A program made the position numbers and the translations under genes. DNA of 23,027 nt from a virus: the IMG/VR virus record IMGVR_UViG_3300025840_000261, positions 1-23,027 of that record. One strand, 5' to 3'. The first letter of the stretch is position 1. Each line of letters begins with the position of its first letter. Shown in pieces: positions 2,413 to 7,295 of the stretch. Below the pieces are notes generated by a model. It made no database searches and was not told the origin of the DNA. It saw only the letters and a program-made list of their open reading frames with translations.

Positions 2413-3073
2413 TTTTAACTAACCATTCACGGGTCAAAGGGGTCAGAGCATAATCAGTCCACATGGTGCCAGCAGCACACGACTCAAGGGCATCCATGGT
2501 CATCTGGGAGGTCTTGCCCGCCCAGATCGCCTCTGCCTCCCAGGGCACAGCAGATGCAGGATAGGTTTTTTCTGCAATTTCACGCCACAGGGGTGGAACG
2601 TCCTCCTCTGCATTAATAATCGCAATAAATGAATTGTAGATGCTTCCAGCCATGCAATCCTGTGCTGCGTGCCACCCTTCATGACGCATCACACTCATCA
2701 AAACACCAGGACGACTCATGTATGCTTTGTTGAGGTAGAAGTTGTTGCTCACAGTATGGTAGACACCACGATGACCAACAGGGAAATACTTCTCATCAGC
2801 AAGGAAAACATCAACACCAATTACGGTGAGTGCGTTGAGGATTCTAGCAAACTCAGTAGCAACAGAATCCCAATCAGAATCTGGATAAACCTCTCTGAGA
2901 TAATCAACACCCCATACAGGTTCAACACCTTCCTTACACTCACGTAGCATCATGCATCCTAGTGAGTCGTTGGTGTAAAAACCTTTGGTGATTTTCCCTT
3001 CATTTGCTAGTGCAAAGTTACTGAGTCCCAAACTCAATATCGTCAGGGTTACGGGGATTAGCGAACGTACCAT
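2393..3073 (-). CDS. Secreted HExxH (gluzincin-like) protein
   Basis: From the ATG at 3073 the product (226 aa) begins with a clear signal peptide: short basic start MVRS, hydrophobic core to residue 20 and an ALA cleavage site near 23. A zinc motif HEGWH lies at residues 131-135, and a WEAEA segment at 178-182 can supply the glutamate third ligand, the gluzincin pattern. Four or more Cys residues after the signal fit export to an oxidising compartment. A TTG at 3115 would add 14 residues but spoil the short n-region. Either start overlaps the 58-aa gene upstream. Likely an exported metallopeptidase acting in the periplasm or envelope; its target is unknown. Confidence 0.8.
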   Translation of the reverse strand: MVRSLIPVTLTILSLGLSNFALANEGKITKGFYTNDSLGCMMLRECKEGVEPVWGVDYLREVYPDSDWDSVATEFARILNALTVIGVDVFLADEKYFPVGHRGVYHTVSNNFYLNKAYMSRPGVLMSVMRHEGWHAAQDCMAGSIYNSFIAIINAEEDVPPLWREIAEKTYPASAVPWEAEAIWAGKTSQMTMDALESCAAGTMWTDYALTPLTREWLVKNGYVDK

Positions 3074-3517: not shown

Positions 3518-3762
3518 AGTTTGTTCAGAAAAAGGACGTTGTGCAGGTGATCGTACTGGATGAATTCTACATCCTTAGGAAGCAAACTGACGGCAGCAGC
3601 AGCAAAGTCGTTAGGAAACTTAGCAAACAGACGCCAGAACTTCTTTGTCTGATCGTAGTCTAACGTGCTCTTAGGAAGAACACGCATCTCATACTCGCCT
3701 CGTGTGTAACGATTTGGGTATGGTTCTATAAACTCACGGATGTAATCTTGTAGGAGGTTCAT
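3514..3762 (-). CDS. Hypothetical protein (82 aa)
   Basis: Start set at the ATG 3762-3760 (MNLLQDYIREFIEPYPNRY), which overlaps the previous stop at 3759 in an ATGA junction; the longer open frame to 3822 has no supporting site. A basic middle (KSTLDYDQTKKFWRLFAKF) is followed by a hydrophobic C-terminal half. No known domain. Confidence 0.65.
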   Translation of the reverse strand: MNLLQDYIREFIEPYPNRYTRGEYEMRVLPKSTLDYDQTKKFWRLFAKFPNDFAAAAVSLLPKDVEFIQYDHLHNVLFLNKL

Positions 3763-3986
3763 TTGACAAATACCTGATTTTGCTCGTTGTGCAGTTGTTC
3801 TGCTTGCTTCAGATAATAGCACATGTGTGCCACATATTCAACGTCTTCTTCACATGGTTGGAAATCATACGCATCTTCCCAATCAACAGTACCATCACGA
3901 TTGACTGGAGCACCAAATGGAGTGCCATCGTCATCAAGTGCGAAGGCACAACCAGCAGCAACAAGGTAGAACTCGGGAGCAGGCAT
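3759..3986 (-). CDS. Hypothetical protein (75 aa), first gene of operon
   Basis: The ATG at 3986 lies 29 bases downstream of a -10 box with an excellent -35 (see promoter). The product starts MPAPEFYLVAAGCAFALDDDG and contains a short hydrophobic strand and a C-terminal helix. It opens a ten-gene operon that includes both metallopeptidase-like genes. No family recognised. Confidence 0.65.
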   Translation of the reverse strand: MPAPEFYLVAAGCAFALDDDGTPFGAPVNRDGTVDWEDAYDFQPCEEDVEYVAHMCYYLKQAEQLHNEQNQVFVK

Positions 3987-4009
3987 TAGAGGAAAAGCGA
4001 AGGAACTCT

Positions 4010-4038
4010 AGTATACTATGTATTGAGCAGCGTGTCAA
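4010..4038 (-). promoter_or_regulatory. Sigma70-type promoter TTGACA-N17-TATACT
   Basis: Minus strand -35 TTGACA (4038-4033), a spacer of exactly 17, and -10 TATACT (4015-4010). It lies across the 3' end of the HNH gene and its stop, and 29 bases before the ATG at 3986. Near-consensus for a host housekeeping sigma factor, so probably an early promoter. Confidence 0.75.
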
Positions 4039-4441
4039 ATGTCTCGACTTTCACAATGCCCTTGTGGGACTTCCTCTTGCCACTACGAATGGCACGAAGA
4101 TGTGATGGGTTGTGCTTGTTGTCATAAGCCCATGTGTCAAGTGAATATACTTCAATGGATGAACCATCTTTGTATGTCAATCTATGAACTTTAGCACTGT
4201 TAGTGTAGTCACGATTCTCTATTGACTTGTTCTTGTGACAAGTAGAGCACAATAACTGACACTTGAGTGCTTCTTCATAGCACTTGCTATAACCTTTGGA
4301 GTTTGCCATATTACCAATGGAATCAACCTTGGTAGATGGGTCGATGTGATCAAAGTGTAGATTCTCAGTTGCTCCACACTTCACACATTTGTTTCCAAAT
4401 GCTTCACGGAGCTTATTCATTCGTGTTTGATATGCTGACAT
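4016..4441 (-). CDS. HNH homing-type endonuclease
   Basis: From the ATG at 4441 the 141-aa product has CVKC (19-22), the HNH core FDHIDP with Asp31 and His32, and CSTCHKNK (65-72) with two Cys plus His69 and Asn71. This makes a zinc-stabilised beta-beta-alpha-metal nuclease. The C-terminal part (SLDTWAYDNKHNPSHL..., then SGKRKSHKG) resembles the modular DNA-binding repeats of phage homing endonucleases. Such enzymes cut a target allele so that their own gene spreads by repair. It has its own late promoter inside a long hairpin, unlike its neighbours. An open frame runs upstream to 4486, but that part is the hairpin and is probably not translated. Confidence 0.88.
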   Translation of the reverse strand: MSAYQTRMNKLREAFGNKCVKCGATENLHFDHIDPSTKVDSIGNMANSKGYSKCYEEALKCQLLCSTCHKNKSIENRDYTNSAKVHRLTYKDGSSIEVYSLDTWAYDNKHNPSHLRAIRSGKRKSHKGIVKVETFDTLLNT

Positions 4442-4443
4442 AA

Positions 4444-4485
4444 TGGGCAGGCGTCTGTTGTATTTATACAAGAAACACCTGCCCA
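4444..4485 (-). promoter_or_regulatory. Late promoter inside a 42-base hairpin
   Basis: TATAAATA, the T4-type late box, lies at 4468-4461 on the minus strand. It sits in the tip of an inverted repeat covering 4485-4444: two 19-base arms around a UAAA loop, with 18 of 19 positions pairable (two G-U pairs, one C-C mismatch). The 3' arm ends two bases before the ATG at 4441. Read-through RNA would fold the whole hairpin, while RNA started at the late box would lack most of the 5' arm. Confidence 0.75.
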
Positions 4486-4491
4486 ATCACA

Positions 4492-4914
4492 TCACTTATA
4501 CAAATACGATCCAGCCCAATCAGCATTCTCCAGCAACCACTCACGATCCTTGATCAGAAGCAGGTTGAAGCGCACATGCTTGGCAGGTGCTTTGAACGAT
4601 GCAGGTTTGTAGACTTCACCAGTCTTCTTATCTACAAAAGCATGGACAGAGCGAGAACCAGCACCAGTCTCCATAATCAGTTTGTGATACTTGCGACCAG
4701 ACTCAATATAGAACTTGTAGTCGCTGGTGTTGTTGCTAGTCTTGAAGTTGTCCACCAGAGCATCACACAGCATCAGGCAATACTTGCGGATGTTCAACTC
4801 AATGGTGTTGCGAGCATCAGCAGTAGCAGCAAAGTCAGCGAAGGTGGCAGTCATGTCGTTGTCTGAACTGAAGTCAGTATAAAGGGTCTTGGTGGGGTTT
4901 GGGAGGCAGATCAT
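4492..4914 (-). CDS. Conserved phage hypothetical protein (140 aa)
   Basis: The ATG at 4914-4912 overlaps the previous stop in an ATGA junction; a GTG at 4974 would extend the frame inside the upstream gene. The product has a helical N-terminal half and a C-terminal half with YHKLIMETGAGSRSVHAFV then DKKTGEVYKP. I recall this second part from other phage hypothetical proteins of unknown role; this is memory, not a search. No catalytic motif is visible. Confidence 0.75.
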   Translation of the reverse strand: MICLPNPTKTLYTDFSSDNDMTATFADFAATADARNTIELNIRKYCLMLCDALVDNFKTSNNTSDYKFYIESGRKYHKLIMETGAGSRSVHAFVDKKTGEVYKPASFKAPAKHVRFNLLLIKDREWLLENADWAGSYLYK

Positions 4915-5135
4915 GCCACTTCGCTCGCTGGCACACGGGTCACGGTGAGACGACTGAAGTTGTACTGACGCCACGCATCACATGCCTCGTTCACCATACG
5001 ATTGTGCTGACGATCCATGCCCTTAGCAGTCTTGCACTTGCCTTCCTTGCGGAAATACACGATAGGGTGAGCAGGAGACTCAGCGAATTCGATCTCGATG
5101 CGGTAGAAGGAGTGCTTGACGACTTGGACGGTCAT
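4911..5135 (-). CDS. Hypothetical protein (74 aa)
   Basis: First gene after promoter B, with AAGGGAA upstream of the ATG at 5135-5133. The product is basic with alternating strands (VVKHSFYRIEIEF) and a central KEGKCKTAKG stretch. It is followed by, and coupled to, the 140-aa gene. No family recognised. Confidence 0.65.
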   Translation of the reverse strand: MTVQVVKHSFYRIEIEFAESPAHPIVYFRKEGKCKTAKGMDRQHNRMVNEACDAWRQYNFSRLTVTRVPASEVA

Positions 5136-5166
5136 GTGGTGTTCCCTTGACGACTTCTATAGTATA
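5135..5166 (-). promoter_or_regulatory. Promoter B
   Basis: GCCC-TATACT (-10 at 5166-5161), then GTCGTCAAGGGAACACCAC and the ATG at 5135. The box begins 31 bases before the ATG and directly follows the stop of the upstream micro-gene at 5171. No clear -35 box. Confidence 0.55.
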
Positions 5167-5170
5167 GGGC

Positions 5171-5299
5171 TCAGGAGAGCAGTTCCAGCACCTCTTGGGA
5201 CAGGTCCTCAACTGGCATATCGTGGTCGATCTCAATCACGTCATACTCATTCTCAATTTGATCCAGGAGCCAGCGGTCAAGCATTACTTCATTCAGCAT
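5171..5299 (-). CDS. Acidic micro-protein (42 aa)
   Basis: A short ORF read directly from the sequence: ATG at 5299-5297, TGA at 5173-5171, product MLNEVMLDRWLLDQIENEYD... ending EVLELLS. It overlaps the upstream membrane-protein gene by 11 bases in another frame. Strongly acidic, probably helical, no known family. Confidence 0.5.
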   Translation of the reverse strand: MLNEVMLDRWLLDQIENEYDVIEIDHDMPVEDLSQEVLELLS

Positions 5300-5465
5300 C
5301 GGTAGTTTCCTCAGTAGTGATTTGGTTTACGTTGTAGCGAGTGTTATAAGGGGAGTTGAAAAAGCGACGAAAAGCAGTAACAACAATAATAAACGCTGAT
5401 ACCACACCAACAAGACCAAGGAAGGTGGTAACATCGCCAGTAAAAGTGTAAGTGTCAGGAGTCAT
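5289..5465 (-). CDS. Tiny single-pass membrane protein (58 aa)
   Basis: ATG at 5465-5463 overlapping the previous stop (ATGA), TGA at 5291-5289. Residues about 13-33 (TTFLGLVGVVSAFIIVVTAF) form one strong membrane helix, followed by RRFF and a polar tail, so the positive-inside rule puts the C-terminus in the cytoplasm. It lies in tandem with a 28-aa membrane micro-protein. Candidate roles are a holin or antiholin, or a modulator of a host membrane complex; the sequence does not decide. Confidence 0.6.
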   Translation of the reverse strand: MTPDTYTFTGDVTTFLGLVGVVSAFIIVVTAFRRFFNSPYNTRYNVNQITTEETTDAE

Positions 5466-5548
5466 CGGTAAATTGCTTTGAAAAAGAGTAGAAGACCAGC
5501 AGCAGTAATAATGCCAGTCAGGAGAAGAGAAGTGCTAGTTACATCCAT
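5462..5548 (-). CDS. 28-aa membrane micro-protein
   Basis: ATG at 5548-5546 joined to the previous stop as TGATG; TGA at 5464-5462 overlaps the next ATG. The product, MDVTSTSLLLTGIITAAG then LLLFFKAIYR, is almost entirely one membrane helix with a basic end. The tight overlaps on both sides support it as a gene. Its size is like that of small photosystem or cytochrome subunits, but I cannot match it to one. Confidence 0.5.
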   Translation of the reverse strand: MDVTSTSLLLTGIITAAGLLLFFKAIYR

Positions 5549-5787
5549 CAGTAGTGTGCTTCAGACCAGTCCAGTTTATCAGAGTATTTGGCGATTCCAT
5601 CATAGCATTTCTTTGTCATTTCTTGATCACCATCAGAGATGTAGGACTTGAGGAACTCAAAGCAATACTTGATGCGGTTCTCTGGTTGTGCCAGCACACG
5701 CTCAAGTTTTGCTTTGGACTCAGCAACACGCTTGTTGTGTGCGAACATCTCACGATCAGCAAAGGACATGGTGTGGATGGGGTGCAT
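5548..5787 (-). CDS. Hypothetical helical protein (79 aa)
   Basis: First gene behind promoter C, ATG at 5787-5785 with AAGGGAA upstream; Met7 is a possible alternative start. Charged, helical protein with coiled-coil-like spacing around residues 17-32. No known domain. It heads an operon that continues with two membrane micro-proteins. Confidence 0.65.
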   Translation of the reverse strand: MHPIHTMSFADREMFAHNKRVAESKAKLERVLAQPENRIKYCFEFLKSYISDGDQEMTKKCYDGIAKYSDKLDWSEAHY

Positions 5788-5819
5788 GGCGTCGTTCCCT
5801 TGACTACCTTAGTAGTATA
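5787..5819 (-). promoter_or_regulatory. Promoter C
   Basis: TATACT (5819-5814) after GCGC, followed by ACTAAGGTAGTCAAGGGAAC and the ATG at 5787. The leader shares AAGGTAGTCAAGGGAAC with promoter A. No -35 box. A perfect 10-bp palindrome CACCTAGGTG (5839-5848) lies just upstream and contains the stop codon of the methyltransferase gene. Confidence 0.6.
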
Positions 5820-5841
5820 GCGCAGGAAGAGACCCATACAC

Positions 5842-6582
5842 CTAGGTGATTGCCACCTCGTCAACTGGCACAGTAGTGGAATTGATACGCTGCTGAGCGA
5901 TGCTGTAATAGTCTGGATCACTCTCAATACCAATGAAATTTCTACCAGTACGCACACATGCAACGCCTGTTGTACCACTACCCATGGTATTATCCAGCAC
6001 TGTATCACCTTCATTGCTGTATGTCTTGACCAAATACTCCATTAGATCCACAGGTTTCTGAGTTGGATGTAAACCCTTCTCTTGCTTGAATTTTAAAATG
6101 GTCTTGGGGTAGCGAGACCCTTCTGGGTTGTCGCGGTGCTTAGATTGCTGTTTACCATAAACCTCGCCAATCTTTGCTGTGTCAGATGAGAACCCACTGT
6201 ATGGTGTTGAGTACCACATCTGGGGATTGTATGTTGGTTTCTTACGATAGAACACCAGTATATTCTCATGGGATTTGAGTGGCATTACTTTTGCATTCAT
6301 GGGATTAGTTCCTTGTGGTTTCTCCCATATCCACTCATACTTAAAGTTCTTGATGTTAGATGCTGCTAGAATAGTTGTGAATGGTTGTGCAGCAGTGAAT
6401 ACCATAGCAGCATCTTGCTTGCATACTCGGTTATACTGCTCCCACAATTTATCAAGAGGAATAATACTGTCCCATTTGCAAGCAGTTGTACCATACGGCA
6501 AATCTACCAACAACATGTCTACACTATTATCTGCAATTGTAGGAAGCAGATCTAGACAATTACCCAACAGTAAGTTTACCAT
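5842..6582 (-). CDS. DNA methyltransferase 1 (beta-class, probably N6-adenine)
   Basis: A 246-aa S-adenosylmethionine-dependent DNA methyltransferase. The catalytic motif IV is DLPYGTT (27-33) near the N-terminus, and the cofactor-binding motif I is DNTMGSGTTG (about 197-206) near the C-terminus. That order defines the beta class. HPTQKPV precedes motif I, as is usual. The (D)LPY form favours adenine N6 as target, though N4-cytosine cannot be excluded. The start overlaps the stop of the upstream nuclease gene by 7 bases, so the two are translated together. It is closely similar to methyltransferase 2 along its length but lacks that protein's extra middle segment. It presumably protects sites cut by its partner or by host enzymes. 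Confidence 0.93.
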   Translation of the reverse strand: MVNLLLGNCLDLLPTIADNSVDMLLVDLPYGTTACKWDSIIPLDKLWEQYNRVCKQDAAMVFTAAQPFTTILAASNIKNFKYEWIWEKPQGTNPMNAKVMPLKSHENILVFYRKKPTYNPQMWYSTPYSGFSSDTAKIGEVYGKQQSKHRDNPEGSRYPKTILKFKQEKGLHPTQKPVDLMEYLVKTYSNEGDTVLDNTMGSGTTGVACVRTGRNFIGIESDPDYYSIAQQRINSTTVPVDEVAIT

Positions 6583-7112
6583 TCAGAAATATCTCTCACG
6601 AAATTGCATTCTAGCAGAGCAGCAACGTTTGTGCAAATATAATCATCGTTGCCACCACCTTTGCCACCCTGTTGGATGTTAAAGTAGCATTTGTCGCTAT
6701 TCAAGTGCTCAACAAAATCTTCTTTGGTGAACCACATAATACGAGCATCATTCTCATCTTCATTAATGCCACAGAAAATAAGACGCTCCCAATCTTTACA
6801 GACAGAAACGTGATTGATGATAAACTTGTCCTTTACTATACCACCGCTTTTGTCACGGGTAGAGAGAGCAAATTTGATCTCAGTCGGAATATCGTCAATC
6901 ACACGATCATGACCAGCAGTAGAAGTCTTTGCTCGCTTAACATTACGTCCAGCAAGTGTCATAAACTTAGACACAAAACGCTCACCAAACTCACCTTTCT
7001 GTTTGGGAGACATGAACACATAACTATCAAAAGGTGTGTCCTTCCAAGGATCTTTTAGATTATCGGTAATATACTGACGAAGAGTGCCATCAGCAAAAAT
7101 AAAATCAAACAT
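6576..7112 (-). CDS. PD-(D/E)xK nuclease 1, putative restriction endonuclease
   Basis: A 178-aa protein with a visible PD-(D/E)xK site: helix Glu in GEFGERF (40-46), Asp69 in HDR (68-70) and E78-I-K80. This fold is common to type II restriction enzymes, which cleave DNA with Mg2+. It lies directly upstream of, and overlaps, a DNA methyltransferase, the usual arrangement of a restriction-modification pair. Nuclease 3 has the HDR and EIK motifs at the same residue numbers and a similar K-x-K-G-x-F-x-E helix, so the two look homologous. The recognition site cannot be read from sequence. A role as a replication or repair nuclease is the alternative. Confidence 0.75.
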   Translation of the reverse strand: MFDFIFADGTLRQYITDNLKDPWKDTPFDSYVFMSPKQKGEFGERFVSKFMTLAGRNVKRAKTSTAGHDRVIDDIPTEIKFALSTRDKSGGIVKDKFIINHVSVCKDWERLIFCGINEDENDARIMWFTKEDFVEHLNSDKCYFNIQQGGKGGGNDDYICTNVAALLECNFVRDISEW

Positions 7113-7130
7113 GCTTGAAATAATAAAGAA

Positions 7131-7295
7131 CTAAAAAATTTCCGCAAGGGCATCGTTGAGACACTTGCTCAGTTGGCACAGCAGGTCAGTCTCGTCCACG
7201 CCATGCTGCTGCGCCAGTCTCTGGGTGTCTTTGGGGTCGTGCCCCCACATCAGATCGATCAGGAACTGGAGCTGCTGGGTGTCTAGAGTCGCCAT
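7131..7295 (-). CDS. Small protein at head of nuclease-methyltransferase operon 1
   Basis: Start set at the ATG 7295 (54 aa), because a CCCC-TATGAC box lies 31 bases upstream, the same geometry as the other promoters; an ATG at 7325 would then lie inside the promoter. The product is helical and acidic, and DTQRLAQQHGVDETDLLCQL (about 24-43) could be a helix-turn-helix. It precedes nuclease 1 by 18 bases. Its position recalls control proteins of restriction-modification systems, but the sequence does not prove this. Confidence 0.55.
   Translation of the reverse strand: MATLDTQQLQFLIDLMWGHDPKDTQRLAQQHGVDETDLLCQLSKCLNDALAEIF

Follow-up and report, generated by a model that had tools for sequence, protein, structure and literature searches.

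We find that the HNH endonuclease gene in a 23,027-nucleotide stretch of viral DNA (the window, meaning the whole stretch analysed) is preceded by a strong RNA hairpin that carries a late-promoter octamer at its tip. We propose, with a probability of about 0.78, that this hairpin restricts translation of the endonuclease to the late phase of infection, as in T4 I-TevI and Aeh1 mobE. The features of the locus, in the order in which they are transcribed, are:

4492..4974, minus strand: upstream gene DUF7717, start uncertain (Pfam DUF7717, E 2.5e-56)
4467..4485, minus strand: hairpin 5′ arm, TGGGCAGGTGTTTCTTGTA (from sequence and fold; complementarity kept with changed sequence in seven relatives)
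4461..4468, minus strand: late-promoter octamer TATAAATA, an exact match of the NATAAATA class of T4-like cyanophages, starting at -27 from the ATG
4444..4462, minus strand: hairpin 3′ arm, TACAACAGACGCCTGCCCA (from sequence and fold); its final part is the short leader of the predicted late mRNA
4455, minus strand: predicted late transcription start, G4455, the sixth base past the octamer being taken as +1 from T4 late-promoter geometry
4016..4441, minus strand: HNH endonuclease gene, 141 aa (PHROG HNH families, E 1.9e-21; Pfam HNH, E 0.0019)
4010..4038, minus strand: sigma-70-type promoter of the next gene, TTGACA-17-TATACT, near-consensus with 11/12 matches
3759..3986, minus strand: next gene downstream (PHROG 9109, E 1e-34), whose homologue lies directly behind DUF7717 at empty sites

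Read along the minus strand from 4485 to 4439, the region is TGGGCAGGTGTTTCTTGTA-TAAA-TACAACAGACGCCTGCCCA-TT-ATG or, with its arms split and written 5′ to 3′, T GGGCAGGTGTTTCTTGTA TAAA TACAACAGACGCCTGCCC A TT ATG. Sequence and fold both bear out what a sequence-only reading of this DNA had described and give a 42-nt inverted repeat (4444-4485, minus strand) with 19-nt arms, 18/19 positions paired and a UAAA loop, with TATAAATA at its tip and partly within the loop, and with two bases between its end and the HNH ATG (4441-4439). The minus-strand fold has a free energy of -33.6 kcal/mol (z -5.85), none of 200 shuffles is equally stable, and the plus-strand fold is weaker. The minimum free energy structure prolongs the stem, pairing part of the start codon. 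The internal mismatch causes a repeat search with default settings to miss the hairpin, and an Rfam search of the window matched no family.

What speaks for a chance palindrome or a sequence artefact is that AT-rich octamers are common, NATAAATA occurring 5 times in the window against 4.7 expected. TATAAATA occurs 3 times against 1.0 expected, the remaining two copies lying within ORFs. The octamer count by itself is not significant, as at least 3 copies appear in 8/100 shuffles. However, the enclosing stem has a free energy of -29.5 kcal/mol in the window, compared with a best value of -22.5 kcal/mol among the 824 NATAAATA-plus-ATG cases found in 400 dinucleotide shuffles of the window. The octamer, the hairpin and the start position are significant in combination. 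Contradicted by this shuffle test and by the compensated conservation described below, chance or artefact retains next to no probability.

The assignment of the gene to the HNH endonucleases, already made in the sequence-only reading, is upheld by clear matches to the PHROG HNH families; the Pfam HNH match is weak and falls under the gathering cut-off. A PDB sequence search with the HNH profile found no match. The AlphaFold model of the protein is mediocre (mean pLDDT 68.6), and its best PDB fold match, the HNH homing endonuclease I-HmuI, is weak (E 0.011) and, coming from a low-confidence model, not decisive. In a scan of genome contigs, bacteria and archaea yielded no more than distant HNH domains. 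We place the start at ATG 4441, not at the TTG 4486 of mechanical ORF calling, because this is where the alignment with relatives begins and because they have CCATTATG in common with it. The HNH element sits directly after the DUF7717 TGA stop. At its other end, the sigma-70-type promoter of the next gene overlaps the HNH 3′ end (codons FDTLLNT*), and the HNH proteins of relatives end earlier; similar TTGACA/TATACT-type promoters are also found at the empty site of S-RIM32 and of L017. Promoters embedded in T4 endonuclease genes have been described and are thought to favour retention (PMC2988022).

Megablast of the window matches almost exclusively phages of Synechococcus and Prochlorococcus, with S-H9-1, S-WAM2 and S-RSM4 as the best, and we therefore read the window as a fragment of a T4-like cyanophage, the origin that had been supposed for it. 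For cyanophage S-PM2 the late promoter has been described as NATAAATA, and gp55 homologues are present in all T4-like cyanophages sequenced by 2010 (PMC2984593). The 23-kb window, itself a fragment, showed no gp55 gene; a gp55 homologue is encoded by 7/14 related endonuclease-bearing contigs, mostly the largest ones.

Under the proposed mechanism, a mobile HNH homing endonuclease gene would have inserted just after the DUF7717 stop, bringing its own timing switch. Early or middle read-through RNA would contain both arms and fold into the hairpin, burying the AUG region, and no endonuclease would be made. Late in infection, a T4-type polymerase of the gp55 class would initiate at TATAAATA in the hairpin tip. 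Because the octamer lies inside the inverted repeat, the late RNA would lack the 5′ arm, and its open 14-nt leader (gacgcctgcccatt) would permit translation. Read-through from upstream into the HNH gene is plausible, since no terminator-like site is called within 3700-7200. By analogy with T4 late-promoter geometry, the late transcript would begin where the sequence-only reading had put it, near 4455.

The prediction that read-through RNA buries the start and late RNA exposes it agrees with the modelled cost of opening the start region, 23.8 kcal/mol in the former and 3.0 kcal/mol in the latter; across all eight HNH members (the window and seven relatives), the modelled read-through-minus-late difference is 13.8-20.8 kcal/mol. 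None of the eight has a Shine-Dalgarno sequence in its 14-nt leader. In the modelled read-through RNA, the stem hides the AUG region itself.

The hairpin is conserved. The HNH protein has nine viral relatives with 61-79% identity; relatives in this range are present on ten viral contigs, two of them with identical sequence in the region. All except L009 retain the hairpin together with the octamer and the ending CCATTATG. In all eight members examined the octamer is positioned at exactly -27, with 2/8 carrying NCTAAATA (ACTAAATA) in place of TATAAATA. The conservation that the sequence-only reading had named as a check is found in seven relatives, where changes in the stem are compensated: GGGCAGG/CCTGCCC alternates with GGTCTGG/CCAGACC, a double change, and with GGACAGG/CCTGTCC in L008. 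The covariation score of the eight sequences is 0.171, compared with 0.080 in shuffles (0/500 as high) and at most 0.117 when slid, a score built from both-side changes in nine cells over three pairs and hence from few independent events, mainly between two sequence groups. The members' own arms pair with an average of -22.4 kcal/mol, compared with -16.7 kcal/mol for arms swapped between members. Judging by these substitutions, the base pairing of the hairpin is kept by selection.

The same substitutions bear on whether the inverted repeat is a DNA operator, bound by the HNH protein to repress its own late promoter in the manner of I-TevI. The repeat does surround the promoter, and operators overlie the promoter of I-TevI and probably those of I-TevII and I-TevIII (PMC2988022). 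However, the stem sequence differs while its pairing is kept between members whose proteins are 79% identical, the opposite of what is expected of a sequence-specific site. We consider an operator very unlikely as the explanation of the repeat, while an operator function could coexist with the timing switch.

The hairpin is absent from all 80 DUF7717 loci without the HNH gene that were found on viral contigs, and it therefore belongs to the mobile unit and travels with the HNH gene. Isolates S-H9-1 and S-RIM32 display the empty site, DUF7717 being followed at once by a homologue of the gene that comes after HNH in the window. Hairpin-bearing copies sit behind DUF7717 and empty sites occur elsewhere, as homing predicts. 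These loci also weigh against a terminator or 3′-end stabiliser of the DUF7717 transcript, a role suggested by the presence of a strong stem a few nucleotides past the DUF7717 stop codon: the stem is missing where only DUF7717 is present, it keeps a constant distance from the HNH ATG, and a T-run is found on neither strand, with no terminator called. Such a role is very unlikely. An intrinsic terminator was rejected as a candidate, the GC stem having no T-run and none being called in 3700-7200.

L009, with 61% identity, differs from the other relatives. It has no hairpin, and around 2985-3005 its HNH start forms an ATGA overlap with the DUF7717 stop. From this overlap, the L009 gene should be a natural variant that is translated together with DUF7717; the device is consequently dispensable.

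The layout is already known from T4 I-TevI, I-TevII, I-TevIII and segB and from Aeh1 mobE (PMC2988022, PMC3014915). As these two accounts describe it, mobE of Aeromonas phage Aeh1 resembles the window gene in being a free-standing HNH gene of a T4-like phage with a start-covering RNA hairpin and a late promoter within the arrangement, and its effect on translation was shown experimentally (Gibb and Edgell 2007, 2009, cited in PMC2988022 and PMC3014915). In the same accounts the mobE hairpin hides a Shine-Dalgarno sequence, which the window hairpin lacks, and the neighbouring gene and host phage are different. T4 I-TevI, I-TevII and I-TevIII share with the window a promoter whose position keeps its own transcript from folding into the hairpin that hides the start; I-TevIII, too, is an HNH enzyme, and the I-TevII octamer is at -26. 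Unlike the window gene, these three lie inside group I introns and have a hidden Shine-Dalgarno sequence. T4 segB (a GIY-YIG gene), e and soc likewise combine a late promoter with a start-hiding RNA structure before a late-expressed gene (PMC2988022, PMC3014915); they belong to other protein families than the window gene, and neither e nor soc encodes an endonuclease.

With a measure of the same kind, the stems of I-TevII and I-TevI have free energies of -16.2 and -11.1 kcal/mol, against -29.5 kcal/mol in the window. When T4 serves as a positive control, gene 26, I-TevII and e come out close to the top, and I-TevI, segB and soc are missed, so that the measure underestimates weak cases. The window case should work like the T4 and mobE systems, as a variant without a hidden Shine-Dalgarno sequence. 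It differs from them in having no such sequence, in its stronger stem, in its occurrence in a cyanophage and in being backed directly by covariation. The open-access full text searched contained no description of this layout in cyanophages. The sequence-only reading went too far in speaking of an unrelated endonuclease family, as the layout had been reported for the HNH enzymes I-TevIII and mobE (PMC2988022, PMC3014915). Its suggestion that the layout is widespread is supported by three further endonuclease groups.

These groups emerged from a scan of IMG/VR with the pattern TATAAATA-N8-20-CCATTATG, which is blind to gene function. Strong stems were found mostly before endonucleases, beyond the window's HNH group in a GIY-YIG gene (L129), a GIY-YIG family (L133) with a Shine-Dalgarno sequence within the stem, and a CxxC-type HNH family (L147, L148, L164). 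A control octamer, TAATAATA, also yields strong stems, rarely before ORFs; for ORFs of at least 90 aa with a dG of -12 or lower, TATAAATA has 8 cases and the control 2. The pattern alone is not specific, since one of the top TATAAATA matches (L149, 5440-5482) has the octamer as the tip of a hairpin (CCCCCGTAC...GTACGGGGGTTTT) that is very strong, resembles a terminator and lies before a probable dNMP kinase gene.

Of 37 distinct upstream regions in the CxxC-HNH family, 28 have a late promoter and 18 a stem at -12 kcal/mol or better; in one subgroup the promoter is present without a stem. Several CxxC-HNH genes (L147, L148, L164, L474-L531) lie directly behind tRNA-like 3′ ends, where ARAGORN called no tRNA and intron-like sequence precedes; this may be a tRNA interrupted by a group I intron. 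For the L129 GIY-YIG family, complementary arms at z -3 or lower occur in 43/55 distinct late-promoter upstream regions. The genome of Sf-CH5, a cultured cyanophage with Synechococcus WH8102 as host, has a late-promoter-like octamer at 21 ORFs and an enclosing stem at that level only at its GIY-YIG endonuclease, gene SfCH5_200 (z -5.1, next -2.4). No recognisable late promoter precedes several cyanophage GIY-YIG genes, L455, L456, L457 and L461. Rfam searches of the related loci returned only tRNAs and one group I intron (RF00028, 58.7 bits; L274, 800-988), located about 500 nt upstream of a GIY-YIG gene and near two tRNA genes.

Some endonuclease genes appear to be insulated by other means. 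F-CphI, a characterised free-standing homing endonuclease gene of the T4-like cyanophage S-PM2, shares TATAAATA with the window, at -31, but an intrinsic terminator separates it from psbA and, unlike the window gene, it has no start-hiding hairpin. The F-CphI octamer lies right behind that terminator (AJ630128.1, 11545-11690; L632), and a very similar terminator precedes the GIY-YIG genes in L317, L329, L330, L333 and L335; in L317, L329 and L330 the start-hiding hairpin is absent. The absence of the hairpin where a terminator precedes the gene suggests that hairpin and terminator are alternative means of keeping early RNA from expressing the endonuclease.

A different arrangement is found at 37 GIY-YIG loci, where a second NATAAATA or NCTAAATA lies upstream of the first, mostly by 62-73 nt and at most by 84 nt (L261-L334, with isolates B23, L458, MN695335.1, and S-B68, L462, MK016664.1). 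The unit between the two octamers is about 45-60 nt long and contains a small stem-loop and usually an intrinsic terminator. The leader of the GIY-YIG endonuclease mRNA is complementary to the 5′ part of this unit. The match is specific: over 19 distinct covarying arms, own pairs average -22.6 kcal/mol and swapped pairs -9.6 kcal/mol, with 12/332 swapped pairs reaching -18 kcal/mol. This complementarity suggests, as the simplest though unproven reading, a separate late antisense small RNA that would act on the GIY-YIG mRNA, because a cis stem needs no promoter of its own. The window's HNH gene lacks such an arrangement.

The promoter positions also speak against an RNA processing switch, in which the AU-rich loop UGUAUAAAUACA would be an RNase E-type cleavage site, the 5′ arm would be removed from read-through RNA and TATAAATA would be no promoter. 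A nuclease could plausibly cut an AU-rich loop atop a GC stem, and the relatives conserve this loop. However, unrelated endonucleases have the octamer at a nearly fixed place, -26 to -31 relative to the ATG, among them F-CphI, where no start-blocking hairpin surrounds it; the variation of its first base fits the cyanophage late promoter NATAAATA (PMC2984593); and in the GIY-YIG loci the second NATAAATA precedes another RNA unit. Processing is quite unlikely, and late initiation within the hairpin remains our preferred reading.

With somewhat less than an even chance of being right, a broader proposal is that free-standing endonucleases of T4-like cyanophages and their relatives have repeatedly and independently gained a strand that pairs with the leader by the start codon. 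One source of this strand would be a cis hairpin enclosing the late promoter, as in the window's HNH gene, the CxxC-HNH family and two GIY-YIG groups. The other, in one large GIY-YIG family, would be an independent late transcript of about 45-60 nt, made from a NATAAATA promoter and usually provided with a terminator, which would match the 5′ end of the endonuclease mRNA by complementarity and control the homing endonuclease as an antisense RNA. Isolates Sf-CH5, B23 and S-B68 offer the cis and the possible antisense forms. In the window, the switch would act on a start codon that lacks a Shine-Dalgarno sequence. The T4 timing trick is no curiosity of a few coliphage genes: it accompanies several endonuclease families in marine T4-like cyanophages, and it bears on why selfish endonucleases stay silent early in infection.
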